Assembly (NCBI GenBank): GCA_016927065.1
Contig: JAFGNJ010000022.1
Span: 1-64,000 of the forward strand
Source of the DNA: Deltaproteobacteria bacterium
Lineage (GTDB): Bacteria; Desulfobacterota; B13-G15; RBG-16-54-18
Direction: 5' to 3'
DNA: 64,000 nucleotides
Positions 30,894 to 45,612 of the stretch are shown here, piece by piece. A model generated the notes under the pieces. The model made no database searches and was not told the origin of the DNA. It was given only the letters and a program-made list of their open reading frames with translations. Within the stretch, counting starts at the first letter, position 1, and every line of letters begins with the position of its first letter. A program made the position numbers and the translations under genes.

Positions 30894-32039
30894 ATGGCTG
30901 ATTTTACATCGGAACAAAAAGACATAAAAAAGGCGGCGAGAGAATTCGCCGAGGGTGTCTTTAGGGAAGTAGCACGAGAACTGGACGAGAAGGAGGAATT
31001 CGATGATCGCATTTGGAAGAAAGCAGCGGAATTGGGTTTCCTCGGAGTATTTATTGAAGAAAAATACGGAGGTGCAGGCTACGGCTATGTAGAACAATGT
31101 CTGATCATGGAAGAGTTTGCCCGCGTGGATTTAGGGATCGCCCATGCGCTCGACTCAGTCTTCTTCGGTTCACAGATCATTCAGGTGATCGGCACCGAAG
31201 AACAGAAGCAAGAGTATCTTCCTGGTGTGTGCTCGGGGAAGACAAGGATGGGCATGGCAATCACAGAACCAGATGCGGGAAGCGATGTGGCATCCATCAC
31301 CACGACAGCAGTAAAAGAAGGTAACGAATATGTGATCACGGGAAACAAAATGTTTATTACCAATGCCACCGTTGCCGATTTTCTCGTTGTCTTATGCGTC
31401 ACCAATCCCAATGCTTCGAAAAAACACGAGCGACTGAGTACTATCATGGTCGAGACAAACAGACCTGGTTACGAAGCAAATAAATTGAAGGGAAAGCTTT
31501 CGTTACGCTGTTCCAATACCGGCGAGGTAACCCTTAACAATGTGAGAGTCCCAAAGAAAAATCTCCTCGGCGAGGAAGGCAAAGGTTTTTATAACATCAT
31601 GGAATTTTTCAACCGTTCTCGTATACAGGTTGCCGCTTTCGGGGTTGGAACCGCCCAGGGGGCCTTAGACAAATCAATCGCGCATGTCCGACAAAGACAA
31701 CAGTTCGGACAGCCGCTTGCGGCGTTCCAAATCATCCAGGCCAAGATTGCTGATATGGCGACGCTCGCCGAGGCGGCGCGTTCGTTGCTTTATCGCGCAG
31801 CGTCAAAGATAGACGACGGCGATGTCGACCCCGCCCTCATCTCCATGGCAAAGTGGTACTGCGGTGAAGTGGCCGTAAAGGTTGCCGATGAGGCGATCCA
31901 AATCCACGGTGGATACGGAATCCTACAGGAATATGATGTGGAGCACTACTGGCGGGATGCCAAGGTTATCGAGATCTTTGAGGGTACAAAGGAAATCGAG
32001 AAAATTCTGATCGCCAGAAAAATATTAGGAAGGTATTAA
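30894..32039 (+). CDS. acyl-CoA dehydrogenase
   Basis: This 381-residue flavoprotein oxidises an acyl-CoA to the 2-enoyl-CoA and passes electrons to Etf. The FAD/substrate signatures are GMAITEPDAGSD and FNRSRIQVAAFGVGTAQGA. The quinonoid-region sequence QIHGGYG and the C-terminal IFEGTKEIEKI are as in the family; the Glu of FEGT is the usual catalytic base in many members. A strong ribosome-binding site (AGAGGAGG) precedes the ATG. It is the first gene of an operon that continues 3 nt later with an Fe-S oxidoreductase. Chain-length specificity is unknown. Confidence 0.95.
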   Translation: MADFTSEQKDIKKAAREFAEGVFREVARELDEKEEFDDRIWKKAAELGFLGVFIEEKYGGAGYGYVEQCLIMEEFARVDLGIAHALDSVFFGSQIIQVIGTEEQKQEYLPGVCSGKTRMGMAITEPDAGSDVASITTTAVKEGNEYVITGNKMFITNATVADFLVVLCVTNPNASKKHERLSTIMVETNRPGYEANKLKGKLSLRCSNTGEVTLNNVRVPKKNLLGEEGKGFYNIMEFFNRSRIQVAAFGVGTAQGALDKSIAHVRQRQQFGQPLAAFQIIQAKIADMATLAEAARSLLYRAASKIDDGDVDPALISMAKWYCGEVAVKVADEAIQIHGGYGILQEYDVEHYWRDAKVIEIFEGTKEIEKILIARKILGRY

Positions 32040-32042
32040 TCG

Positions 32043-33173
32043 ATGGACTTCTTGGAAAAACATGAACTGTACGCATGTCTCCAGTGCGGCAAGTGCACGG
32101 GTGGTTGCCCCGTTTCCCTCAGGGCGCCCCTCAATATCCGCTCTCTCATGCGCGAAGTCCTGATGGGGGGGTCGCCGGAGGTGGCGCTTGATTGTCCGGG
32201 GCTGTGGGATTGTACGACATGCGCGATCTGTACCCTTCGGTGTCCCCGAGGACTGAAACCCTCGGAGGTCATCGTGGGCCTCAGGGCAGAGCTTGTCGAG
32301 GGGGGGAGGGTTCCCAAGACAATTATCGATGCCCTCGAAGGTACCTTTAAGCACGGGAATCCATGGGGACGGGCGAGACAGAAAAGGATCGAATGGAAGG
32401 GGGACACGGCGGTCAAGACTCTCTCCGACGAAGGGGAGGCTGAATGGCTCTATTTCATAGGATGTGCCCCTTCCTATGATCCCAGACTCCAGAGAATCCC
32501 CCGCATCCTTTGCCGCATCCTCGAGACAGCGGGCATAGACTTCGGCAGCCTGGGGACGAAGGAAAGCTGCTGCGGCAATGAGATCAGGCGGATGGGAGAA
32601 ACAGGACTCTTTGAGGAATTGAGGGAGGAAAACACCAAGAATTTTAACGCGTCGGGGGTCAAGGCCATCCTCACCACGTCTCCACACTGTTTCAATACCT
32701 TCTCAACCGAGTATGACCTCGATGGATTCAAGGTCCTTCACTATACGCAACTCCTTGCCGATTTAATCAAAGAAGGGGAAATAACGTTTTCCAAGGAGGT
32801 GAACAAGAAGGTCGTCTATCACGATCCCTGCTTCCTGGGAAAACAGCATGAGATCTTCGATCCGCCCCGGGAGATACTGAAGGCGATCCCCGGCCTTGAA
32901 CTCCTTGAGTTTGACAGGTGCAGGGAACGCAGCCTCTGCTGCGAGGGGGGTGGAGGAAGGATGTGGGCCGAGGGAGCGGGTGAGGGAGAGCGGAACAGCG
33001 AGGTCAGGGTGAAGGATGCGCATGCCATGGGCGCTGAGATCATTGCCACGGCCTGTCCGTTTTGTCTGTTGACCCTGGAGGATGGCGCAAAGACAACAGG
33101 TTTGGAAGAAGAAATGCCCATACGGGAGATCTTGGAACTCGTTGCCGAAGCCATGGGTTTCGACGACGTTTAA
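32043..33173 (+). CDS. HdrD/GlcF-like (Fe-S)-binding oxidoreductase with two CCG domains
   Basis: This 376-residue soluble protein has two N-terminal [4Fe-4S] motifs, CLQCGKCTGGCP and CTTCAICTLRCP. Two cysteine-rich CCG domains follow (about 145-190 with KESCCGNE, and 260-345 with CCEGGGGRMW and TACPFC). CCG domains bind the noncubane Fe-S cluster at which disulfides are reduced in HdrB/HdrD, or otherwise serve quinone-linked electron transfer. Similar proteins accompany EtfAB in fatty-acid- and aromatic-degrading anaerobes. It has no membrane helix, so it is probably a cytosolic electron carrier from Etf to the Hdr modules. Confidence 0.88.
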   Translation: MDFLEKHELYACLQCGKCTGGCPVSLRAPLNIRSLMREVLMGGSPEVALDCPGLWDCTTCAICTLRCPRGLKPSEVIVGLRAELVEGGRVPKTIIDALEGTFKHGNPWGRARQKRIEWKGDTAVKTLSDEGEAEWLYFIGCAPSYDPRLQRIPRILCRILETAGIDFGSLGTKESCCGNEIRRMGETGLFEELREENTKNFNASGVKAILTTSPHCFNTFSTEYDLDGFKVLHYTQLLADLIKEGEITFSKEVNKKVVYHDPCFLGKQHEIFDPPREILKAIPGLELLEFDRCRERSLCCEGGGGRMWAEGAGEGERNSEVRVKDAHAMGAEIIATACPFCLLTLEDGAKTTGLEEEMPIREILELVAEAMGFDDV

Positions 33174-33202: not shown

Positions 33203-33991
33203 ATGGATATCATTGTCTGCATCAAGAGGGTACCGGAGGTGGCGGAGATCGACCTGCAGGTGGATCAGACGGGTAAAAGTATTAAAGAGGAAGGGTTGGT
33301 CTTTGGTGTAAATGATTGGGACAACTATGCAGTTGAAGAAGCGGTGAGGATAAAAGAGAAACATGGCGGCAAGGTCACCGCCATCACGGTGGGTTCCGCG
33401 GAGAGTGAAGAAGTGATCCGGCGGGCGCTTGCCTTGGGGGCCGATGAGGCCGTCATGGTCACGGACCCACAGGCAGATGGATCGGATGCCTATGCCATAG
33501 CAAAGGTCCTCGCCGCCGCTATCAAGGAAATCCCCTATGACATCATCCTCACGGGCGTGCTGGCGGATGATGACGGCTGCGCCCAGGTGGGGGTGACATT
33601 GGCCGAACTGCTCGGCATCCCCCACGCCACCCTGGTAACGGCCATTGAAATTGAGGAAAAACAGGTGAAGATCAAGAGAGAGCTTGAAGGGGGAATGGAG
33701 GAAGAATTGGTCGTCGCAACTCCTGCCCTCTTTACCATCCAGAGCGGGATCAATGAGCCGAGATACGTCTCCATCATGGGTATCAGGAAGGTTGCCAAAA
33801 AAGAGGTGGCGACACGCGATCTCGGCACCCTCGGTCTTTCACCAAACCAGGTAGGCCCAGCGGGGTCTTTCACCACCGTAGAACGGATCTTTCCGCCGCC
33901 GGTGGGTGAGGGGGCACAGATACTTGAGGGAAGCTCGGATGAAGTGGCGACCAAGGTCATGGACGTCTTCCAGAAAGGGGGTGTGATCTAA
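33203..33991 (+). CDS. etfB: electron transfer flavoprotein beta subunit
   Basis: This 262-residue protein starts MDIIVCIKRVPEV, with GGAGG 9 nt upstream; a longer reading frame runs back into the preceding gene and is not used. EtfB motifs include NDWDNYAVEEAVR, ALALGADEAVMV and the DDDGCAQVG segment. It binds the AMP or bifurcating FAD and contacts acyl-CoA dehydrogenase. It shares one base with etfA (TAATG). Whether it bifurcates cannot be decided by eye. Confidence 0.94.
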   Translation: MDIIVCIKRVPEVAEIDLQVDQTGKSIKEEGLVFGVNDWDNYAVEEAVRIKEKHGGKVTAITVGSAESEEVIRRALALGADEAVMVTDPQADGSDAYAIAKVLAAAIKEIPYDIILTGVLADDDGCAQVGVTLAELLGIPHATLVTAIEIEEKQVKIKRELEGGMEEELVVATPALFTIQSGINEPRYVSIMGIRKVAKKEVATRDLGTLGLSPNQVGPAGSFTTVERIFPPPVGEGAQILEGSSDEVATKVMDVFQKGGVI

Positions 33992-34971
33992 TGGCAGAGA
34001 TCCTTGTCTTGACGGAACATCGTCAAGGAGAGATGCAAGAGATTAGTTTAGAAATGCTCGCAAAGGGACAGCAACTGGCGGAACAGACAAAAAAAGAACT
34101 GACGGCGGTCCTCTTGGGCAAAGGGGTTGCTTCTATGGCGGATGAGGTCAAGCGCTATTGCCATCACATCCTTGTGATGGAAGACGACCTCCTCGCTAAT
34201 TTTAACTCAGAGCCGTATCAGGATGTCCTCAGCTTCTTAATCAAGGAAAGAAAGCCGTCCCTCGTACTCATGGGACATACCGCCTTCGGGATGGACCTTG
34301 CCCCCCCGTTGGCAACAGCAGCAGGAATCCCCCTTGCGACCGATTGTTACGAGATAGAAGTAAAAGGGGATGCGGTAATCCCCTACCGGCAGATGTATGG
34401 CGGCAAGATGTGCGCAGAGGTTCATTTTAAGGAGGCCCCCTGTCACATGATCACGGTCCGCGCCGGCTCTTTCCCCGCGGAGGGTCTAAAAGAGATCAAC
34501 GGCGCCGTCGAACAAGTGTCCTTTCAGTTTGACAAAGACTACGCGTACAAAAAATTCCTCCAATACGTTGAAGCAGCGGTAGGAGACGTGGATATCACCC
34601 AGGCCGATGTCCTCGTCGCCGTGGGGCGGGGGATCGGAGATTCGGAGAACCTCCCCATGGTAGAGGAGTTGGCGAAGTTGCTCGGCGGGGTGGTCGCCTG
34701 TTCACGTCCGGTGGCGGATAAACATTGGCTCCCCAAGGAGCGACAAGTGGGTACTTCTGGAAAGACCGTGAAACCGAAGCTCTACATTGCGTTCGGTATC
34801 AGCGGGGCCTTTCAGCATCTTGCCGGGATGAAAAACGCGGCTACCATCATTGCCGTCAATAAAGATCCTAAGGCCCCCATATTCAGTGTCGCCCACTATG
34901 GGATCGTCGATGACCTGATGAAGGTGGTGCCAAGCCTTGTGGCAAAGGTTCGTGAGCGAAAAGGAGCGTAG
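33991..34971 (+). CDS. etfA: electron transfer flavoprotein alpha subunit
   Basis: This 326-residue protein has the N-terminal alpha/beta domain. Its C-terminal FAD-binding domain contains VAVGRGIG, a CSRPVADKHWLP-type segment, QVGTSGKTVKPKLYIAFGISGAFQH and the NKDPKAPIF region. It has no N-terminal ferredoxin extension, unlike some clostridial EtfA. It is directly followed, without a gap, by the first hdrA, which suggests the Etf heterodimer docks on the HdrA assembly. Confidence 0.95.
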   Translation: MAEILVLTEHRQGEMQEISLEMLAKGQQLAEQTKKELTAVLLGKGVASMADEVKRYCHHILVMEDDLLANFNSEPYQDVLSFLIKERKPSLVLMGHTAFGMDLAPPLATAAGIPLATDCYEIEVKGDAVIPYRQMYGGKMCAEVHFKEAPCHMITVRAGSFPAEGLKEINGAVEQVSFQFDKDYAYKKFLQYVEAAVGDVDITQADVLVAVGRGIGDSENLPMVEELAKLLGGVVACSRPVADKHWLPKERQVGTSGKTVKPKLYIAFGISGAFQHLAGMKNAATIIAVNKDPKAPIFSVAHYGIVDDLMKVVPSLVAKVRERKGA

Positions 34972-37671
34972 GTGGCAGCAGTTCCGACAGTATTGGTAAT
35001 TGGTGGCGGTATCACCGGCATGCAGACTTCCCTCGCCGTGGGCGATGCCGGGTATAAAGTCTACCTGGTGGAGCGGTACCCCTGGATCGGGGGGCATATG
35101 TCTCATTTTGACAAGACCTTCCCCACCAATGACTGTGCCATGTGCACCATATCCCCCAAACTGACAGAGGTAGGGCAACACCCGAACATAGAATTGCTCA
35201 CCGGGACAGAAGTAACGTCGGTAGAAGGCGAAGCGGGGCACTTCCGGGTGCGGGTGCGCACCACCCCACGGTACATAGACATCAGCAAGTGTAATGCCTG
35301 TGATGAGTGTATCAAGGCATGTCCCGTCAGCATCCCCTGTGAGTTCAATGAGGGGCTCATGGGTCGCAAGGCCACATACAAGGCCTATCCCCAGGCGATC
35401 CCCAATGCGATGGCCATAACCAAGCTGGATCATGCGCCCTGCAGGCTGTCATGTCCGGCAGGGGTCAACGCCCACGGCTATGTCGCCCTTGCCTCCATAG
35501 GTAAATTCAAGGAGGCCCTGGACCTGATCAGAGAGAGGAATCCGCTCCCCTCGGTCTGCGGAAGGATCTGCTACCACCCCTGTGAGCAGGCGTGCAACAG
35601 GGGGGAGATCGACGAGCCTGTGGCCATCAATCCCATCAAGAGATTTCTCACCGACTATGCCCGGACACACCCTTCGGAGGACAAAGCGGAGAAGCCGGTC
35701 ATCGATCCTGAAAAGCCGAAGGTGGCCATTGTGGGGGCAGGACCGACCGGCCTGACCGCGGCCAGGGACCTCGCGCTCATGGGGTACCCGGTTACCATCT
35801 TTGAGGCCCTCCCCGTTGCCGGGGGTATGCTCTACACCGGGGTGCCCGCCTATCGCTTGCCGAAAGATGTCCTGGATTACGATGTCCAGGAGATATTGAA
35901 ACTGGGTGCAGAGCTCAAGACCAATGTGAGGATCGGCACGGACCTGACCATCGACGACCTACGTAAGGACGGCTATAAAGCGATCTTCGTGGCCGTGGGA
36001 TTGCACAAGAGCCGAGGCCTCGACATCGAGGGTAAAGACTTGGAGGAAGTCATGGGCGGGATCGAATTCCTCCGCAAGGCAAACCTCGGTGAAAAAGTAC
36101 AACTTCCCTCCCGAGTTGCGGTAGTCGGAGGCGGCAATACCGCCATCGACGCCGCGCGAACGGCTACACGCACAGGGACCAAGGAGGTCCTCCTGATCTA
36201 TAGGCGCAGCAGGGCGGAGATGCCCGCCGGAGCAGAGGAGGTGAAACAGGCGGAGGAGGAAGGGGTACAGATGAACTTCCTCGTAGATCCCGTTAAGGTC
36301 ATAGGGGAAGGGGGCAAGGTTAAGGCCGTTGAATGCAGGAAGATGGAGCTGGGGGAACCTGATGAATCGGGGCGGAGGAGGCCCGTGCCCATCGAGGGCT
36401 CGGAATTTCAAATAGAGGTTGGATCGGTAATCCTGGCCATTGGGCAGGCGCCCGACCTCGATTGGGCGCCGAAAGTAGGTCTGGAACTAACCAAACAGGA
36501 CACCGTGAAGGCGGATCCCGTAACCCTGGCGACAGGGGCGGAGGGTATCTTCGCCGGCGGAGATGTGGTGTTAGGCCCCCGTTACGCCATCGAGGCCATA
36601 AACCAGGGACGAGAGGGGGCCATCTCCATCGATCGATACCTCCGTGGCGAAGACCTCGGGGCGGGGCGAGAACCGCGGGAGAGGAAAGAAGTCCCCGTCC
36701 CCGATCGGCCCGTTGAGGTGCAGACGCGTGCCAAGACCCCGCACATCCCGGTAGAGGAGCGGAAGGGAGACAAGGAAGTCGAGCAGACGCTCACCGAAGA
36801 AGAGGTGATTGCGGAGGCCAAACGGTGCCTGAACTGCGCCATCTGTTCCGAGTGCCTGCAGTGCGTGGCGGCCTGTGAGCAGCAGGCCATCGATCATACG
36901 ATGATCCCCCAAGAGCGGGAGCTTGAGGTGGGCGCCATCATCGTAGCTGTCGGATACGAGCTCTTCGACCCTACGCAGAAACCGGAATACGGCTATGGGA
37001 AATATAAGAACGTTATCAACAGCTTGGAGATGGAGCGCCTCTTTTCCCCTTCGGGACCGACGGAGGGAGAAATTATCGTACATGGAAAGGTCCCCAAGAG
37101 CATAGCCTTCATCCAGTGTGTGGGCTCACGGGATCAGACAGTCGGCAACCCATACTGCTCGCGGGTCTGCTGCATGTACACGGCAAAACACGCCTATGGC
37201 GTCGTCGATCGGATACCGGAGGGCGTGAAGGCGACCGTCTATTTCATGGACGTTCGCGCCTATGGGAAGGGGTATGAGGAATTCCACGAGCGTGTTCAGC
37301 GCAGTGGAGTCATTTACCGTCGTGGACTGCCCTCAGAGATCTTTAGCCGTAATGGAGATGGGGCCCTGGTGATACGGGGTGAGGATACCCTGCTCGGGAA
37401 GCCCTACGAGGAGGAAGTGGATGTCGTGGTCTTGGCGTGCGGCCTGCGGCCTGCTCGCGGCATGAAGGAGGTCGCCGATCTCCTCGACCTTGAATTAGAT
37501 GAGAACGGTTTTTTGAAGGAACTGAATCCCAGCGACCCCGTCGTAACGTCACGACCGGGGGTCTTCCTCGCCGGCTGCTGTCAGGCGCCGAAGGATATCA
37601 CCGATTCGGTTGCGGAGGCAAACGGGGCTGCGGCAAAGGCCTTGGCAATCATATCAAGGGTGCATGAATGA
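34972..37671 (+). CDS. HdrA-type flavoprotein with inserted GltD/NfnB-like NAD(P)H module
   Basis: This 899-residue protein starts with GTG immediately after etfA. Residues 1-125 are an HdrA N-terminus: FAD motif GGGITG, the Cys segment NDCAMCTISPK and the cluster motif CNACDECIKACP. Residues about 155-570 are a glutamate-synthase-small-subunit-like unit, with CRLSCP and VCGRICYHPCEQACNRG for [4Fe-4S] clusters, the FAD motif GAGPTG at 255, the pyridine-nucleotide motif GGGNT at 386, and GIFAGGD. A third Cys group follows (CLNCAICSECLQCVAAC, 619-635), and then the HdrA C-terminal half (CVGSRD, YCSRVCCMY). It should take electrons from NAD(P)H or give them to NAD(P)+ inside the Hdr assembly. 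Confidence 0.9.
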   Translation: MAAVPTVLVIGGGITGMQTSLAVGDAGYKVYLVERYPWIGGHMSHFDKTFPTNDCAMCTISPKLTEVGQHPNIELLTGTEVTSVEGEAGHFRVRVRTTPRYIDISKCNACDECIKACPVSIPCEFNEGLMGRKATYKAYPQAIPNAMAITKLDHAPCRLSCPAGVNAHGYVALASIGKFKEALDLIRERNPLPSVCGRICYHPCEQACNRGEIDEPVAINPIKRFLTDYARTHPSEDKAEKPVIDPEKPKVAIVGAGPTGLTAARDLALMGYPVTIFEALPVAGGMLYTGVPAYRLPKDVLDYDVQEILKLGAELKTNVRIGTDLTIDDLRKDGYKAIFVAVGLHKSRGLDIEGKDLEEVMGGIEFLRKANLGEKVQLPSRVAVVGGGNTAIDAARTATRTGTKEVLLIYRRSRAEMPAGAEEVKQAEEEGVQMNFLVDPVKVIGEGGKVKAVECRKMELGEPDESGRRRPVPIEGSEFQIEVGSVILAIGQAPDLDWAPKVGLELTKQDTVKADPVTLATGAEGIFAGGDVVLGPRYAIEAINQGREGAISIDRYLRGEDLGAGREPRERKEVPVPDRPVEVQTRAKTPHIPVEERKGDKEVEQTLTEEEVIAEAKRCLNCAICSECLQCVAACEQQAIDHTMIPQERELEVGAIIVAVGYELFDPTQKPEYGYGKYKNVINSLEMERLFSPSGPTEGEIIVHGKVPKSIAFIQCVGSRDQTVGNPYCSRVCCMYTAKHAYGVVDRIPEGVKATVYFMDVRAYGKGYEEFHERVQRSGVIYRRGLPSEIFSRNGDGALVIRGEDTLLGKPYEEEVDVVVLACGLRPARGMKEVADLLDLELDENGFLKELNPSDPVVTSRPGVFLAGCCQAPKDITDSVAEANGAAAKALAIISRVHE

Positions 37672-39359
37672 GCAAAAAACACAAAGTAGGGGTCTTTATC
37701 TGTCACTGCGGAAAAAACATCGGGGGCTATATCAATATTGCCCAGCTCGTGGAGATGGTCAAGACGATTCCCGATGTGGTCATCTCGACGGATCAAAAAT
37801 ACATGTGCTCGGACCAGGGGCAGGCGGAGATTAAAAAGGCCTTGCAGGAAGGACTCATCGACAGGGTAGTTGTTGCCTCCTGCTCGCCAACCATGCACGA
37901 GAAGACCTTCAGAAAATGCGTCTCTGAAGAGGACTTCAACCCGTATCTCTATCAGCAAGTGGACATCAGGGAGAACTGCTCATGGGTCACCAAGGATATA
38001 CAAGAAGCGACCTACAAGGCCTATGAGTTGATCAAAGCGGGGGTCTCCAGGGTCAAGACGCTCGAGCCCTTGTGGTCCACGGAATATCCGGTAACCCCTA
38101 CCACCTTAGTGATCGGAGGGGGCATTGCCGGGATAATCGCCGCCACCGATATCCTGGAGGCCGGCTTCAAGGTTGTCTTGGTGGAGCGGGAGGATCAGCT
38201 CGGGGGATGGGCACGGCGGATCGGAAAGGGATTTCCCCACTTGACCCCCATCAAAGACTTTCTGAAGGAAAAAATCGAGGTCTTACAATCTCACTCGGGG
38301 CTCAAGACATATCTCTCGAGTGAGGTAGTAGGCCTCGAGGGCTTTCCCGGCAACTTTAAGGCGACCATCAAGCAAGCCGATGATACGACTGTTGAAGAGG
38401 AGATCGGGAGCATCATCGTGGCAACCGGCTTCAAGCCCTTCGACGCACGAAGAAAACCAGAGTTTGCCTACGGGGAGAGCACACAGGTTATAACGACGGT
38501 GGAGATGGAGGAGTTGCTCGAGAAAGGTGAGCTTTCCACCAACGGACAGCCCAAAGAGGTGGCCTTTATCCAGTGCGTCGGATCCAGGGATAAGAGTATC
38601 GGCAATGAATACTGCTCCCGTACGTGTTGTATGGTGGTGGCGAAGCAGGCACTGTTGCTCAAGGAGCTCATCCCCGATGCACGGGTATCCGTCTTCTACA
38701 TGGACGTCCGGGCCTTCGGCAAGGGGTATGAGGAGTTTTTTGAAAAGGCGCAGCGTAGCGGCGTCATTTACATTCGAGGGAACCCATCGGAGGTGTACAA
38801 AAGCGGCGACAAGATGCTCATACGCTATGAGGATACCCTCTTGGGAAGACCGCAGGAATTGGCGGCGGATTTAGTGGTCTTGTCAGTGGGCATGGAACCG
38901 GCGGAGGGGGCAGCGGAGTTGATCAATACCCTCCGCGCCACCGCCGACAAAGACGGCTTTTTTCTGGAGGCCCACCCCAAACTCGGACCGCTGGATACCT
39001 TTTCCGACGGGCTCTTTATCGCTGGATGTTGCCAGGGGCCGAAAGACCTCCCTGATACCGTCGCCCAAGCGCACGGTGCTGCGGCTCGGGCCACCGTCTA
39101 CTTCCATCAGGATAAGGTGATCAAGGAACCGGTGGTGGCCACTATAGACGCAGACGTCTGTTCTGGATGCGGACTGTGTGAGAGCATCTGTTCATTTGAT
39201 GCCCTGCACTTAGATGAAAAGAAAAAGCGGATGACCGTCCAAGAGGCGGTCTGTAAGGGGTGCGGCGCGTGTGCAGCGACCTGTCCTTCGGGGGCGATTA
39301 GTCTCAAGCATTTCCGTCCTTCACAAGTGTTGGCGTGGGTGGAAGGATTTCTCTCATAG
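37668..39359 (+). CDS. hdrA: HdrA-type FAD/Fe-S subunit
   Basis: This 563-residue HdrA has the N-terminal domain GVFICHCGKNIGG, then VVASCSPTMHEKTF. The FAD Rossmann motif GGGIAG (about 148) and ATGFKPFDA follow, then CVGSRDKSIGNEYCSRTCCM and FIAGCCQGPKD. Two C-terminal ferredoxin motifs, CSGCGLCESIC and CKGCGACAATC, end the protein. In methanogens HdrA carries the bifurcating FAD and contacts MvhD and HdrBC. It overlaps the preceding gene by 4 nt. It has the most canonical full-length HdrA layout of the cluster. Confidence 0.92.
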   Translation: MSKKHKVGVFICHCGKNIGGYINIAQLVEMVKTIPDVVISTDQKYMCSDQGQAEIKKALQEGLIDRVVVASCSPTMHEKTFRKCVSEEDFNPYLYQQVDIRENCSWVTKDIQEATYKAYELIKAGVSRVKTLEPLWSTEYPVTPTTLVIGGGIAGIIAATDILEAGFKVVLVEREDQLGGWARRIGKGFPHLTPIKDFLKEKIEVLQSHSGLKTYLSSEVVGLEGFPGNFKATIKQADDTTVEEEIGSIIVATGFKPFDARRKPEFAYGESTQVITTVEMEELLEKGELSTNGQPKEVAFIQCVGSRDKSIGNEYCSRTCCMVVAKQALLLKELIPDARVSVFYMDVRAFGKGYEEFFEKAQRSGVIYIRGNPSEVYKSGDKMLIRYEDTLLGRPQELAADLVVLSVGMEPAEGAAELINTLRATADKDGFFLEAHPKLGPLDTFSDGLFIAGCCQGPKDLPDTVAQAHGAAARATVYFHQDKVIKEPVVATIDADVCSGCGLCESICSFDALHLDEKKKRMTVQEAVCKGCGACAATCPSGAISLKHFRPSQVLAWVEGFLS

Positions 39360-39369
39360 GGGTTGAAGA

Positions 39370-42348
39370 ATGGCTCAGGCTAAGGAAAAGGGTGTATTAG
39401 TCATCGGTTCTGGAGTCGGCGGTCTCAAGGCCGCATTGGAGGTGGCCGCGCGAGGGACACAGGTCTACCTGGTGGATAGAAGCCCATTTTTGGGGGGGGA
39501 GATCGTACAGCTGGAGCGGCAATTCCCCACCAATCGCTGTTGTCTCTGTCAGATGCTGCCGACCACGAACAGGACGGAAGAAGGGGAGTATTGCATGCGG
39601 AGGGATTTTTATCATCCCTTGATCGAGCTCATACCGCAGGCGGAAATCGTAAAATTTTCAGGCAAAGAGGGGGACTTCAAGGTGACCCTGCGCAAGCGGG
39701 CACGCGGCGTGGTGGAAGATCTCTGTACCGCATGCCAGCGGTGTCTTGAGGTGTGCCCTGAAGAGGTGATTGATGAGTTCAACCTTTTTGCCACGAGAAA
39801 GGCCATCTCATTGCGCGGTCCCATGCCGGTGCCGCCGATCCCTGCTATCGACTGGGAGGCATGCACCCGCTGCGGCAAATGTGTAGAGGTCTGCCCCACG
39901 GATGCCATTGACCTGAAGATGGCGGATGAGGAACGGCAGCTTCAGGTCAGTTCCGTCATCCTCGCCCCGGGGTTTGATGAGTTCGACCCGCAGGCCCTCA
40001 CCCAATACGGATATGGGCGCTGGAAGAATGTGGTCACCAGTATAGAATGGGAGCGGATAGTGAGCCCGATCGGCCCCCTTCCTGAGCGGATAAGGCGCCC
40101 CTCCGACGGCAAGGCGATAAAGAAGGTGGCCTTTGTGCTCTGCGTCGGCTCCCGGGAGCGTCGGTGGGATTTTTGCTCGGCGGCCTGTTGCATGTATTCC
40201 GTCAAGGAGGCCCTCTTGGCCAAGGAGTTGCAGAAGGACCTGGAGGTAACCATCTTCTACATGGATCTCAGGGGGTTCGGCAAGGGGTATGAGCGCTACA
40301 TAGAACAGGCGCGGGCACAGGGCGTGCGATTTGTGCGTGGCAGGACCCCCCGCATACAGGAAGATCCAAAAACGAAAAACCTTATTGTGAGCACGATGCC
40401 GAAAGATGAGGTGGTCAAAGAGGAGTTTGATCTTTGCGTCCTCGGCATCGGGCAGAGGCCACCCCGGGGGAGCGCGGAGCTTGCGAAGACCGTCGGAGCC
40501 GAGCTCAACGAATGGGGTTTCTGTAAGACGGTGGACCCCGCAGGGATCGAGACCACACAACCAGGGGTCTATGTATGTGGGTCCTTTTCTGAGCCCAAGG
40601 ACATCCCCGACACCGTCACCCAGGCAACGGCCTGCGCCCTGCAGGTGCTCGAAAGCACGCCGGAAAAGGCCGCCAAACCCCCGAAAGAAACTGAGCCGAC
40701 ACCTGAGCCGACACCTGAGCCGACATCTGAAGAGGAAACAAAGATCGGCGTGGTGCTCTGTCAATGTAAGGGAGAGGTCTCAAAGGGTTTAGACCTGAAG
40801 CAATTGCAGGAGGCCGTCGGTAAACGCCCCTCCGTCAGCGCCGTCATGGAGGTCGATGCCCTGTGTGTCAAAGACGCGGCGAAGGGGCTGTTGGGCGAGA
40901 TACGAAAGGGGGGCATCAATCGTCTCGTGGTTGGTGCGTGTTCCCCCTATTTGTTCCGCAGGCGCTTCTTGGAGGGGATGGGGGACATGGATCCTTGGCT
41001 CATCGAGTGGGTCAACCTCAGGGAAGGGGCGATACAGGCCCACGACCAGGATGGGGCCCAGGAAAAGGCCGAGGCAATGCTCCTTATGGCGATCGAACGG
41101 CTCAGGAGGAAGGAAGCCCGCACACCGAGCGCCTCAGCCGTGAAAAAGAGCGCCCTGGTGGTCGGAGCGGGGCTCGTCGGCCTTGCGACGGCATCGGCCC
41201 TGGCAGGCAGGGGTGTGGAGGTCCATCTCGTAGAACGAGAAGCGGAGCTGGGTGGTATGCTCAAGGGGAGGCCGGACAAGGCCGAGCTCCTTGAGAAATA
41301 TATAAAGGAAATTGAGAAGAATTCCCTCGTGCAGGTCTATCGCAAGAGCACCGTGACCGCATTCAGGGGGCAGGCAGGTGACTTTTGGGCCGTGATCAAG
41401 GCAGAGGATGCTGAGCAGGAGGTCGGCGTCGGCGCCGTGGTCCTGGCCACCGGTGCCGAGGAGTATCAGCCGACGGAATTCCTCTATGGCAAAAACAAAC
41501 GGGTTGTTACCCAGCGGGAATTAGAGAGCGGCCTTGCCTCAGGAGATATTAAACCGCAGGCAATCAGTTCGGCCGTCATGATCCAATGCGTCGGATCGAG
41601 GGATAAGGAACACCCCTGGTGCAACCGGTACTGCTGCGCCGAGGCCTTGGAAAACGCCCTCCTGCTCAAGGAGAAAAATCCTGAATTGAAGATTTTCGTC
41701 CTTTTCAAGGATATGATGACCTACGGGTTCAAAGAAAGCCTCTACAGTCGAGCGAGGGAGGCCGGGGTGGTCTTTATCAGGTACCAGGACATAAAGGAGA
41801 TAAAGGTCCAAGGGACCGATCGATTAAAGGTGGCCTCTCCGGAGGGACAGCTCGATTGTGATCTCCTCGTGTTGAGTACGGGCGAGGTCCCCAACAGAGA
41901 CAACGCGGCCCTTGCCCGGCTCTTTGATGTGGAACGTACTGAAGACGGTTTCTTCAAAGAGGCGGAGGTAAAATTCAGGCCCGTGGACGCCTTGCGTGAG
42001 GGGATCTATATCTGCGGCGGGGCCCACTCCCCCCGAACGTGGCAGGAGGTAGTCCAGCAAGGGGAGGCGGCTGCCCAACGGGCCCTGGTCCTCCTGGAGC
42101 AGGAGCGGGTCATGGCCTCGAGCATCGTATCCGCGGTGAATGAGCGACGGTGTTCCGGCTGTGCCTTGTGCGTGGAGGCCTGTCCCTATGGGGCGCGGGC
42201 CTTTGACGAGGAACGGCTGGTGGCGGTGGTAAAAGAGGCCCTGTGCCAGGGATGTGGGGTATGCTCGAGTATCTGTCCGAACGGCGCCGCCTTTATGCAA
42301 GGATTTAGTGAAGGCCAAATCATGGCCATGATTGAGCAAGTGGTGTAA
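39370..42348 (+). CDS. tandem HdrA-HdrA fusion protein
   Basis: This 992-residue protein holds two HdrA modules. Module 1 (about 1-435) has FAD motif GSGVGG, the Cys segment NRCCLCQMLP, two ferredoxin motifs (CTACQRCLEVCP, CTRCGKCVEVCP) and CVGSRERRWDFCSAACCMY. A proline linker at about 440-457 (TPEPTPEPT) joins it to module 2. Module 2 has the HdrA N-terminus VVLCQCKGEVSKG, FAD motif GAGLVG (about 595), CVGSRDKEHPWCNRYCC and the C-terminal motifs CSGCALCVEAC and CQGCGVCSSIC. HdrA normally works as a dimer, so the fusion may fix a heterodimer with two different flavin environments. Confidence 0.9.
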   Translation: MAQAKEKGVLVIGSGVGGLKAALEVAARGTQVYLVDRSPFLGGEIVQLERQFPTNRCCLCQMLPTTNRTEEGEYCMRRDFYHPLIELIPQAEIVKFSGKEGDFKVTLRKRARGVVEDLCTACQRCLEVCPEEVIDEFNLFATRKAISLRGPMPVPPIPAIDWEACTRCGKCVEVCPTDAIDLKMADEERQLQVSSVILAPGFDEFDPQALTQYGYGRWKNVVTSIEWERIVSPIGPLPERIRRPSDGKAIKKVAFVLCVGSRERRWDFCSAACCMYSVKEALLAKELQKDLEVTIFYMDLRGFGKGYERYIEQARAQGVRFVRGRTPRIQEDPKTKNLIVSTMPKDEVVKEEFDLCVLGIGQRPPRGSAELAKTVGAELNEWGFCKTVDPAGIETTQPGVYVCGSFSEPKDIPDTVTQATACALQVLESTPEKAAKPPKETEPTPEPTPEPTSEEETKIGVVLCQCKGEVSKGLDLKQLQEAVGKRPSVSAVMEVDALCVKDAAKGLLGEIRKGGINRLVVGACSPYLFRRRFLEGMGDMDPWLIEWVNLREGAIQAHDQDGAQEKAEAMLLMAIERLRRKEARTPSASAVKKSALVVGAGLVGLATASALAGRGVEVHLVEREAELGGMLKGRPDKAELLEKYIKEIEKNSLVQVYRKSTVTAFRGQAGDFWAVIKAEDAEQEVGVGAVVLATGAEEYQPTEFLYGKNKRVVTQRELESGLASGDIKPQAISSAVMIQCVGSRDKEHPWCNRYCCAEALENALLLKEKNPELKIFVLFKDMMTYGFKESLYSRAREAGVVFIRYQDIKEIKVQGTDRLKVASPEGQLDCDLLVLSTGEVPNRDNAALARLFDVERTEDGFFKEAEVKFRPVDALREGIYICGGAHSPRTWQEVVQQGEAAAQRALVLLEQERVMASSIVSAVNERRCSGCALCVEACPYGARAFDEERLVAVVKEALCQGCGVCSSICPNGAAFMQGFSEGQIMAMIEQVV
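40691..40728 (+). repeat. three tandem 12-bp repeats encoding a Pro-Thr-Glu linker
   Basis: CTGAGCCGACAC occurs three times in a row, the last copy with one change. The repeats encode the EPTP linker between the two HdrA modules. Copy number may vary between strains. Confidence 0.85.
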
Positions 42349-42359
42349 GGAGGAAGAGG

Positions 42360-42839
42360 ATGGCCGAGAAGAAGGATCAAGACACGAAGAAAAAAGAAGA
42401 GACGAAAAAAGACAAGCCGGATAAGGATGTTACCAGGATCGTGGGGCTTTTCTGCCATTGGTGCACATCCACGGCCGCTGACCTCGCCGGGACCACCCGA
42501 AAGGCGTATCCTGCGTCGGTCAGACCCATTCGGGTGATGTGCTCAGGCACGGTGGATCCGGTCTATATCTTGGACGCACTGGTAAAGGGTGCGGATGCGG
42601 TATGGGTAGGCGGGTGAGACCTCGGTGAATGCCACTATGTTAGTGGCAACTATAAGGCGCGGAGACGTGTGGGGATCATTAAGACGATCTTGGATGTCCT
42701 CGGCCTGGATTCCGACAGGGTCTATCTCACCTGGATCAGTGCGAGTGAAGGACCGCAATTTGCGGAATGGGCGAAGCGGATCGAAGAAGACATAAAGAAA
42801 AAAGGGAAAAATCCGCTCGGTGGTTTATTAACGACGTGA
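42360..42839 (+). CDS. mvhD: MvhD/FlpD-like [2Fe-2S] subunit, selenoprotein (UGA decoded as selenocysteine)
   Basis: The frame opens with a good ribosome-binding site (AAGGAGG) and reaches TGA at 42615-42617 (codon 86). Translation continues in the same frame as DLGECHYVSGNYKARRR to TGA at 42837, giving 159 residues. MvhD proteins have five conserved Cys; here they are C32, C35, C61, Sec86 and C91, so Sec replaces the Cys of the GCHxGDCHY-type motif. A hairpin starting 12 nt after the UGA fits a bacterial SECIS. MvhD passes electrons to HdrA. The lysine-rich N-terminal 22 residues are unusual. Without the Sec reading the protein would lack its most conserved motif. Confidence 0.93.
42630..42648 (+). 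promoter_or_regulatory. SECIS-like hairpin for selenocysteine insertion
   Basis: TGCCACTA-TGT-TAGTGGCA is a perfect 8-bp stem with a small loop containing G, beginning 12 nt and looping 20 nt after the UGA at 42615. Bacterial SECIS elements are short stem-loops at this distance inside the reading frame. Confidence 0.8.
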
Positions 42840-42849
42840 GGGAGAAACG

Positions 42850-43983
42850 ATGGCTCGAGGCGTTTTTAGGGAATATAAAGGTAAAGGGTTAGAGGAAGGA
42901 TTACAGGAACTCTGGCGGGAATTGCTGGAGCGCGATGTCGTCCAGGCCATCCTCCTTCCTATGGAGGTGGAAGGCGGGCTTGTCGCCCCGGGGCTCTTGA
43001 CAGACGCGGCGAGGATAGGGGAGTCACGGGTTGTGAGCCCCTATATGCCGGTGAACACCGCACGGGTGCTTCAGATGATGACCAAGACCATGCCGCCGTC
43101 TGAAAAGGTGGCGGTCGTACTGTGTCCCTGTGAAGCGCGGGCCCTGGTGGAACTGGTAAAATTAAAACAGATCTCACAAGAAAACCTCATCGTGATCGCG
43201 TTCGATTGCCCCGGCACCTATGCCGTGGATGACTATAAAAAACTGCTTGAAGGAAAGGAAGATCCGGGCGAGCTGCTCGTGGAAAAGGTGAACAAGGGAG
43301 GCGAAGACGCTCAGCTACGGGAGGCGTGTCGGACCTGCCCGTATCCCTCCGCCCCCTGGGCCGACATCAGGATAGGCTTCCTCGGTCTTGATTACAAGAA
43401 GCGGTTTTTGCTCGAGGCATTGACGGAAAAGGGCGAGGAACTCATTACAGGGCTTGGAATGGAGATTGCCGACGTCCCCCTCAAGGAGCGCGAGGCCTTG
43501 CTCGACAAGCTCGTGGCACAGCGGAAAAAAGCCCAGGAGCAGCTCCTGAAAGAACAACAGGAACAGCTGAAGGGGCCTGATAAGCTCCTCGCCGCCCTGT
43601 CTTCCTGTATCAGGTGTCACAATTGCATGACCGTATGCCCAGTGTGTTACTGCAAGGAGTGCTTCTTCAAATCACCCACCTTCGAGATGGAGGCGGACCG
43701 CTATTTGGGGTTGGCACACAAGAGGGGCGCGACGCGGATGCCCTCCGACATGCTCCTCTTTCATTTGACCCGCATGGCACACATGGCCCACGCCTGTGTG
43801 CAGTGCGGGATGTGTGAGGAGGCTTGTCCCATGGGTGTGCCGGTCTTCCGGCTCTTTAAGGCCACGAGCGCGAAGGTACAGGACCTCTTCAATTATGAGC
43901 CGGGAAAAGACATCGAGGAAGAGATTCCCATTTCCGCGTTCCGTGAAGAAGAGCTCGACAAGATCCAGGAGCCCAAGATATGA
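42850..43983 (+). CDS. FrhB/FdhB-like (F420 hydrogenase/formate dehydrogenase beta) flavin Fe-S subunit
   Basis: This 377-residue protein has the FrhB-family core with VVLCPCEARALVELVKLKQ (about 88-106), CPGTYAVDDY and ACRTCPYPSAPWADI. A Glu/Gln-rich coiled stretch (about 215-245) follows. Two [4Fe-4S] motifs, CIRCHNCMTVCPVCYCKEC and CVQCGMCEEACP, are near the end. Family members bind FAD and transfer electrons between Fe-S clusters and F420, NAD(P) or other carriers; in bacteria they often accompany HdrA-MvhD with formate dehydrogenase. No catalytic hydrogenase or formate dehydrogenase subunit is in the window. It overlaps hdrC by 4 nt. Confidence 0.88.
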   Translation: MARGVFREYKGKGLEEGLQELWRELLERDVVQAILLPMEVEGGLVAPGLLTDAARIGESRVVSPYMPVNTARVLQMMTKTMPPSEKVAVVLCPCEARALVELVKLKQISQENLIVIAFDCPGTYAVDDYKKLLEGKEDPGELLVEKVNKGGEDAQLREACRTCPYPSAPWADIRIGFLGLDYKKRFLLEALTEKGEELITGLGMEIADVPLKEREALLDKLVAQRKKAQEQLLKEQQEQLKGPDKLLAALSSCIRCHNCMTVCPVCYCKECFFKSPTFEMEADRYLGLAHKRGATRMPSDMLLFHLTRMAHMAHACVQCGMCEEACPMGVPVFRLFKATSAKVQDLFNYEPGKDIEEEIPISAFREEELDKIQEPKI

Positions 43984-44522
43984 AGAAAAAGGACTCTGAT
44001 TTTATGCGTAGGGTAGCGGAGGAGGTTCCCGAGGTCAATCGGTGCTATCAGTGTCTCACCTGCACCCTGGGGTGTCCGCTTGTATTCGCCATGGACCTCA
44101 AGCCTCACGAGATTCTCAAATATGTTCAGCTGGGCGATAAAGAAAAGGTATTGAAGGCATCGACGTGCTGGATATGTGCCTCCTGTGAGACGTGTGCGAC
44201 CCGCTGTCCCAATGAGATACCGATCGTAAAACTCATGGACCTCTTGCGGCAGGAGGCGGTGGCGGAGGGAGTGGTGACGGAGCAGGGGCCCAAGGTCAAC
44301 GACGCATTTCTTGCGGCGATACGGAACCTGGGAAGGGTGCACGAGCTCTCGCTGATCATTGATCTGAAGCGAAGGACCGGTGGGCTCTTTAAAATAGATC
44401 CGGATGAAATCCGTCTGGGCATCGGGATGTTTCGCCACGGTAAGCTGAAGCTCCTCCCGATTAAGATAAAGGAAACAAAAACCATAAAGAACCTCTTTTC
44501 CCGATTGGAGAAGCAGAAGTGA
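43980..44522 (+). CDS. hdrC: heterodisulfide reductase subunit C-like
   Basis: This 180-residue protein has the two HdrC cluster motifs, CYQCLTCTLGCP (about 22-33) and CWICASCETCATRCP (about 62-76). A helical C-terminus with FKIDPDEIRLG follows. HdrC wires HdrA to HdrB. It overlaps both the FrhB-like gene and hdrB by 4 nt. Confidence 0.93.
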   Translation: MKKKDSDFMRRVAEEVPEVNRCYQCLTCTLGCPLVFAMDLKPHEILKYVQLGDKEKVLKASTCWICASCETCATRCPNEIPIVKLMDLLRQEAVAEGVVTEQGPKVNDAFLAAIRNLGRVHELSLIIDLKRRTGGLFKIDPDEIRLGIGMFRHGKLKLLPIKIKETKTIKNLFSRLEKQK

Positions 44523-45373
44523 AGATAGGATATTTCCCCGGTTGCTCCTTAGAGTCTACGGCTGTAGAGTACGACCGGTCTGTGCGGGCTGTCGCCGCCA
44601 AGGTTGGTGTGGAGCTGATTGAACTCCCTGACTGGAACTGCTGCGGTGCGTCTTCAGCCCACGCGGTGGATCCCGTATTAGCAGTCGCCCTTCCGGCGCG
44701 CGACCTGATGATCGCCGAAGCAATGGGGTTGGACATCGCCGTGCCCTGTGCCGCCTGTTTCCTCCGTCTTATGGAAGCACAGAAGCATCTGAAGGAAGAT
44801 CCCTCCTTGAAGAAAGAAATAGAAGAAACCTTGGGAAAAAAGTACAAGGGTACTGCTAAAGTATATCATCCCCTGACCGTCTTCTCACAACCGGCGGTAA
44901 AGAAAAAGATCAAAGGTGCGGTGGTCAACAAATTGAAGGAATTAAAGGTCGTCTGCTATTACGGTTGTTATCTGGTGAGGCCGCCTGAGACGACGCACTT
45001 TGATGACCCGGAAAACCCCGTGGTCATGGATGAACTCATGGCTCTGACCGGGGCGGAGGTCCTCGATTGGGCGTGGAAGGTGGACTGCTGCGGTGCGGGG
45101 CATACCCTGCTGCGTCCCGAGTGGGTCGAGCGCCTGGTCGGTGAGATCGTGGAGGGCGCGCGCAAGGCCGGCGCCCAGGGGATCGTCGCTGCGTGTCCTC
45201 TGTGTCAAGCTAATCTGGAGACACGCCAGAAGGGCAAGAATATGATGCCTATCTTTTATTTCACCGAACTCCTCGGCCTCGCCATGGGCCTGAAAAAGGA
45301 GGCAGAGGGGTGGTGGAAGAAACATTTGATATCACCGCGAATAATATACAATCAGGCACGCGAACCCAGGTAA
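44519..45373 (+). CDS. hdrB: heterodisulfide reductase subunit B-like
   Basis: This 284-residue protein has two CCG domains. The first contains YFPGCSLES, NCCGASSAHAV and VPCAAC. The second contains CYYGCYLVRP, VDCCGAGHTLL and AACPLCQANLETR. These bind the two noncubane [4Fe-4S] clusters that split a disulfide, or pass electrons to another acceptor, in HdrB. The start is GTG, overlapping hdrC by GTGA. It is the last gene of the Etf/Hdr operon. The natural disulfide in bacteria is unknown; DsrC has been proposed for sulfate reducers. Confidence 0.93.
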   Translation: MKIGYFPGCSLESTAVEYDRSVRAVAAKVGVELIELPDWNCCGASSAHAVDPVLAVALPARDLMIAEAMGLDIAVPCAACFLRLMEAQKHLKEDPSLKKEIEETLGKKYKGTAKVYHPLTVFSQPAVKKKIKGAVVNKLKELKVVCYYGCYLVRPPETTHFDDPENPVVMDELMALTGAEVLDWAWKVDCCGAGHTLLRPEWVERLVGEIVEGARKAGAQGIVAACPLCQANLETRQKGKNMMPIFYFTELLGLAMGLKKEAEGWWKKHLISPRIIYNQAREPR

Positions 45374-45435: not shown

Positions 45436-45473
45436 GATATTATGTACATAAGCGTGTACGCATAAAGAATGGA

Positions 45474-45612
45474 TCTTCCGAGCCTACTTCCTAAGTCCGC
45501 TGAGGATAAGGAGGGTGGCCGATACGGTGTGGTGGGAAACGACCACGCCCCCCGTGCTTGGAAAGGAGGTCCACCAGGAGGCATTAAGGGCCGATGGCCG
45601 GCACGGGGTCAT
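45474..45612 (+). ncRNA. probable molybdenum-cofactor (Moco) riboswitch leader
   Basis: The leader of moaA is GC-rich, highly structured and non-coding. Visible helices are GGTGTGGT/ACCACGCC around a GGGAAACG loop (45525-45548) and CCCCGTGC (45550-45557) with GCACGGGG (45601-45608). Its segments CCGAGCC, GGGAAAC and GGAAAGGAGGTCCACCAGG match what I remember of the Moco RNA motif, which is found upstream of moa operons. It probably represses translation or transcription when Moco is plentiful. Confidence 0.7.

Follow-up and report, generated by a model that had tools for sequence, protein, structure and literature searches.

The question raised by this locus is whether an mvhD gene that is interrupted by an in-frame stop codon gives rise to a complete electron-transfer protein. 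Judged from its sequence, the gene is very probably read through with selenocysteine. In the window, i.e., the whole analysed stretch of 64,000 nucleotides, the reading frame from 42360 to 42839 carries a TGA at codon 86, followed by 73 open codons (87-159) up to the next TGA at 42837-42839. An earlier, sequence-only reading had placed the stop at 42615 at the site of a conserved Cys, had counted the 73 further codons and had described a perfect 8-bp hairpin starting 12 nt past the UGA. These observations were borne out, and the hairpin is formed by 42630-42637 pairing with 42641-42648. The following features were assigned:

42360..42839, + strand: mvhD (flpD family), 159 aa read through the UGA, predicted Sec at 86
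42615..42617, + strand: predicted selenocysteine codon 86, an in-frame UGA in the family's invariant Cys86 column
42630..42648, + strand: predicted bacterial SECIS, stem 42630-42637/42641-42648 (UGCCACUA/UAGUGGCA), loop UGU at 42638-42640

In the read-through product, the FlpD family (PF02662) spans the UGA as a single domain (E 1e-45, 155 bits, residues 27-147), matching positions 1-121 of the 123 positions of the Pfam profile. Solved MvhD chains were aligned to it over nearly the full length (phmmer E about 1e-37; 2.6e-37 to PDB 5odc), and the cysteines coincide across the match, which covers residues 26-146/154. Positions 32, 35, 61, 86, and 91 are occupied by Cys in all 12 other aligned homologues, and the window gene contains four Cys plus UGA86, situated in the product in the local context GG-U-DLGECHY. 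Homologues were compared in two sets, with 108 in the first and 32 further ones in the second (140 together). Column 86 is also UGA in 30/108 and 12/32 of them, respectively, but due to the deliberate picking of UGA-bearing homologues these fractions do not represent natural frequencies. Homologues ending at the UGA had been named beforehand as an outcome that would speak against read-through; instead, the homologues carry Cys or UGA at this position, followed by the GDCHY motif. The cluster-ligating cysteines of MvhD were sought in open-access papers and were not found there; Sec86 is presumably located at or near the [2Fe-2S] cluster. The proposal of the sequence-only reading that the [2Fe-2S] transfer itself uses selenium goes further than these data.

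According to the proposed mechanism, SelB together with Sec-tRNA-Sec would bind the hairpin directly 3' of the UGA, and the SelB-borne selenocysteine would enter at residue 86, so that the full 159-aa MvhD is made. The bSECIS model (PMC13188914) describes a loop of 3-9 nt, a stem of 4-16 bp, a G within the first two loop positions, a UGA-to-loop distance of 16-37 nt, and an MFE of at most -7.5. The window hairpin falls within this model with its loop UGU (G second), 8 bp, and a UGA-to-loop distance of 20 nt, and its energy is -18.1 kcal/mol when 56 nt are folded and -10.9 when the fold is confined to 29 nt with the hairpin. Relative to dinucleotide shuffles, the fold z of this stretch is about -2; among synonymous recodings, 1.5% give a stem of at least 8 bp (P about 0.015) and 3.8% an equally low MFE. 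Taken alone, the window hairpin is only mildly unusual and suggestive only. It is the comparison of homologues that carries the case beyond chance.

For this comparison, a contiguous stem of at least 7 bp at the site was scored as a simple rule. In the first set, such a stem was observed at site 86 for 26/30 U86 genes, 2/36 U35 genes, and 0/42 Cys/Cys genes, and synonymous shuffles expect 3.8 among the U86 genes. In the second set, it occurs in 9/12 genes with UGA86 versus 0/20 without (p 8e-6). Exceptions are given by four of the 30 UGA86 homologues of the first set and three of the 12 of the second, which have no contiguous stem of this length. Considering phylogenetically independent pairs that differ in UGA86, the hairpin goes with UGA86 in approximately 9 of 11 and shows the opposite pattern in none (sign test, median p 0.004). 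Furthermore, the Tyr/Phe and Gly codons facing each other in the stem covary in U86 genes (TAC with GGT in 17, TTC with GGA in 7), whereas all kinds of Gly codons are mixed at this position in Cys genes. Where the Tyr/Phe codon is TAT, the stem is mostly situated 3-4 nt further upstream, as is also the case for the window gene. It is this comparison that renders the hairpin convincing.

The MFE z-score of the whole region was dropped as a discriminator, since it performed poorly and at codon 35 did not separate U35 genes from the others; the local-stem count was used in its place. The latter gives a clear separation at site 86 and a weaker excess at site 35 (28/36 versus 11.4 expected), where the controls are above expectation as well.

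The sequence-only reading had also predicted that the organism possesses selenocysteine machinery, and indeed tRNA-Sec, selA, selB, and selD are all present in the same assembly (G000; 2.48 Mb, 31 contigs, 94% complete). The tRNA-Sec scores 76.8 bits, above the Rfam cut-off, and has the anticodon TCA; the profile matches reach 625 bits for selA, 373 bits for selB, and 386 bits for selD. Recoding, cis element, and trans machinery of mvhD are strongly supported by computation. The sulfate-reducer setting proposed in the earlier reading found no support in this genome, as a search of the 94% complete assembly for dsrA with TIGR02064 gave no match.

Further in-frame TGA codons were observed in the same genome. 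The selD gene itself (L015, G000:C14:15630-16556) contains one in the N-terminal motif GAG-U-ASKLGPG with a strong hairpin just downstream, and its product is a probable selenoprotein. A second mvhD (L010:1483-1944, G000:C13:10252-10638) has an in-frame TGA at residue 35 (CCEH-U-AYS), adjoins HdrA- and apparent MetV/MetF-like genes and is truncated under table 11. One in-frame TGA each is also present in two PF00384 molybdopterin oxidoreductase genes (G000:C21:45116-46390 and G000:C2:13364-14818), which may encode selenocysteine formate dehydrogenases or related enzymes.

An error in sequencing or assembly, or a recent nonsense mutation, could have placed a TGA in an ordinary Cys86 MvhD, since TGC and TGT are one base away from TGA. 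The closest relative, located in genome G005 (81% identical over 145 residues, tree support 100/100), indeed carries Cys86 encoded by TGC, and its operon corresponds to the window operon gene for gene. We nevertheless regard this explanation as very improbable, because the window gene has an intact stem-loop that is absent from the Cys homologues, and because related genes in another family (six genomes: L019, L020, L124-L127) have UGA at codon 86 with nearly the same hairpin. Moreover, the rest of the operon is intact and the genome contains the full Sec machinery. In the stem, G005 is distinguished from the window by a single base, so that C-A takes the place of the C-G pair 42635-42643, and the fold energy is -18.1 kcal/mol in the window versus -10.2 kcal/mol in G005. 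Loss of the Sec trait was ruled out as the cause of Cys86 in G005, since selA and selB are still there; the Sec/Cys exchange is thus confined to a single gene. Homologues with UGA35, UGA86, or Cys, as well as this Sec/Cys sister pair within the same operon, represent natural pairs for testing the gain provided by selenium at an Fe-S site.

True termination at the UGA, leaving an 85-aa protein and a decaying remnant, is even less probable. As foreseen by the sequence-only reading, automated annotation would truncate the gene, with a table 11 ORF of 85 aa only, and competition between Sec insertion and termination is always present. However, the second half is conserved, as seen from the identity to G005, the invariant Cys91 and the GECHY motif are kept, and no further stop interrupts the frame before the usual C terminus. 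Automatic annotation would report an 85-aa fragment, and half of the electron-transfer subunit of a putative energy-conserving complex would be lost. Other decoding of UGA, be it near-cognate suppression or reassignment to Trp or Cys, is hardly credible: no points specifically favouring it were found, UGA is an ordinary stop elsewhere (e.g., the terminal codon of mvhD at 42837), most window genes are normal under table 11, and in-frame UGA coincides with positions where known selenoprotein families have Cys or Sec (the second MvhD at 35, SelD).

Almost certainly, the gene encodes a selenoprotein MvhD with hairpin-directed Sec insertion at 86, which would serve as connector of an Hdr-type bifurcating or confurcating complex. 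Apart from a TetR-like gene listed ahead of the acyl-CoA dehydrogenase, the following same-strand genes surround mvhD:

30894..32039, + strand: acyl-CoA dehydrogenase-like, upstream (sequence inspection)
32043..33173, + strand: HdrD-like (HdrC+HdrB type) Fe-S protein (sequence inspection)
33203..33991, + strand: EtfB (sequence inspection)
33991..34971, + strand: EtfA (PF01012, PF00766)
34972..37671, + strand: HdrA-like flavoprotein 1 with an inserted Fer4_20/Pyr_redox_2 module (GltD/NfnB-like, HdrL-like)
37668..39359, + strand: HdrA-like flavoprotein 2
39370..42348, + strand: HdrA-like flavoprotein 3 (double, 992 aa)
42850..43983, + strand: FrhB/FdhB-like Fe-S protein (PF04432 E 2.4e-9 plus Fer4)
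43980..44522, + strand: HdrC-like (Fer4 dicluster families)
44519..45373, + strand: HdrB-like (PF02754 CCG)

The association of mvhD with hdrA is given by three HdrA-like genes directly upstream, with HdrC and HdrB downstream, and the core order HdrA-MvhD-FdhB-HdrC-HdrB is common to the window, G005, Chloroflexota, and a planctomycete. In solved Hdr complexes, MvhD has the donor module on one side of its [2Fe-2S] cluster and the bifurcating HdrA FAD on the other, and electron transfer to or from this FAD is known for homologues (PMC12350162, PMC6019823). Sec-containing MvhD would act as one-electron connector, and expected [2Fe-2S] carrier, of an Hdr-type flavin-based bifurcating or confurcating complex. 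Its partners would be the three HdrA-like proteins, the FrhB/FdhB-like protein, HdrC, and HdrB, preceded by EtfBA, the HdrD-like protein, and the acyl-CoA dehydrogenase. The gene content of the operon is suggestive of an electron-bifurcating complex linked to ETF and HdrA. In the best reading, which is based on operon association, MvhD would connect an ETF-linked Hdr complex that couples acyl-CoA oxidation to low-potential carriers; both the role of MvhD in the complex and the electron donor are presumed.

The insert of HdrA-like protein 1 (approximately residues 141-625) is absent from the G005 orthologue and resembles HdrL, an Hdr/glutamate synthase fusion, of Desulfobacterium autotrophicum. 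Downstream of the operon, a Moco riboswitch (molybdenum/tungsten; RF01055, 60.6 bits) is located at 45464-45584 of the window, just upstream of a run of moaA-, moaC-, MOSC-, and moeA-like genes, which by inspection reads as molybdenum-cofactor biosynthesis.

Sec-containing MvhD/FrhD proteins have been recognised since at least 2006, when 19 bacterial genes were reported (PMC1794560), and a 2026 review (PMC13188914) includes Sec-containing MvhD. The window mvhD is a well-supported, clean new example of this documented selenoprotein family and no new kind of system. VhuD of Methanococcus as well as mvhD1, 2, 3, and 5 of Desulfobacterium autotrophicum HRM2 belong to the same PF02662 family (PMC13188914, PMC9622424, PMC2702500, PMC1794560). 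As in the window, Sec replaces a conserved Cys in these MvhD/VhuD/FrhD selenoproteins, the gene is situated beside hdrA, and in case of the bacterial copies the SECIS presumably lies within the coding region. The solved chains, namely MvhD of Methanothermococcus Mvh-Hdr (5odc) and MvhD/ElpC of Fdh-Hdr (7bkb) and Elp-Hdr (8rvu), differ in that residue 86 is Cys and in their association with methanogen hydrogenase, Fdh, or Elp, whereas EtfAB, acyl-CoA dehydrogenase, three HdrA-like proteins, and the FrhB/FdhB-like protein are found in the window. The second MvhD of the genome (G000:C13, L010/L159) is of the same family and likewise has one in-frame UGA, but combines UGA35 with Cys86, falls on a different tree branch, and occurs in an HdrCBA-MvhD-MetVF-like locus.

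With respect to the Sec position, the published motif is CxxU (first motif, equivalent to residue 35) with two Sec (PMC13188914), whereas in the window gene the replacement affects only residue 86, where the second motif has its first Cys. Several Sec residues have been noted in some archaeal proteins (PMC13188914), and vhuD of M. maripaludis contains two TGA codons (PMC9622424), in contrast to the bacterial homologues examined, none of which has UGA at both sites. Given the two-Sec archaeal proteins, the position at residue 86 may already be known. Among the 140 homologues, codon 35 is UGA in 37 genes and codon 86 in 42. Archaeal SECIS elements are mostly located in the 3' UTR. The need for a SECIS after each UGA, together with costly read-through, is a possible explanation for the restriction of UGA to one of the two sites in the bacterial homologues examined. 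More than one UGA was found in just two of the matches listed, L146 (2 TGA) and L079 (3 TGA); double Sec was rejected for both, as each has one UGA in the aligned FlpD core and the rest outside of it.

We consider it possible, if somewhat doubtful, that bacterial MvhD proteins have mutually exclusive Sec sites at 35 and 86 which are repeatedly swapped with Cys, and that the selenolate ligates or adjoins the [2Fe-2S] cluster feeding the bifurcating flavin. If the selenolate is indeed at or next to this cluster, selenium would tune the cluster potential, or its protection, in electron bifurcation. In the tree of the first 108 homologues, 13 changes are needed for UGA86 and 6 for UGA35.
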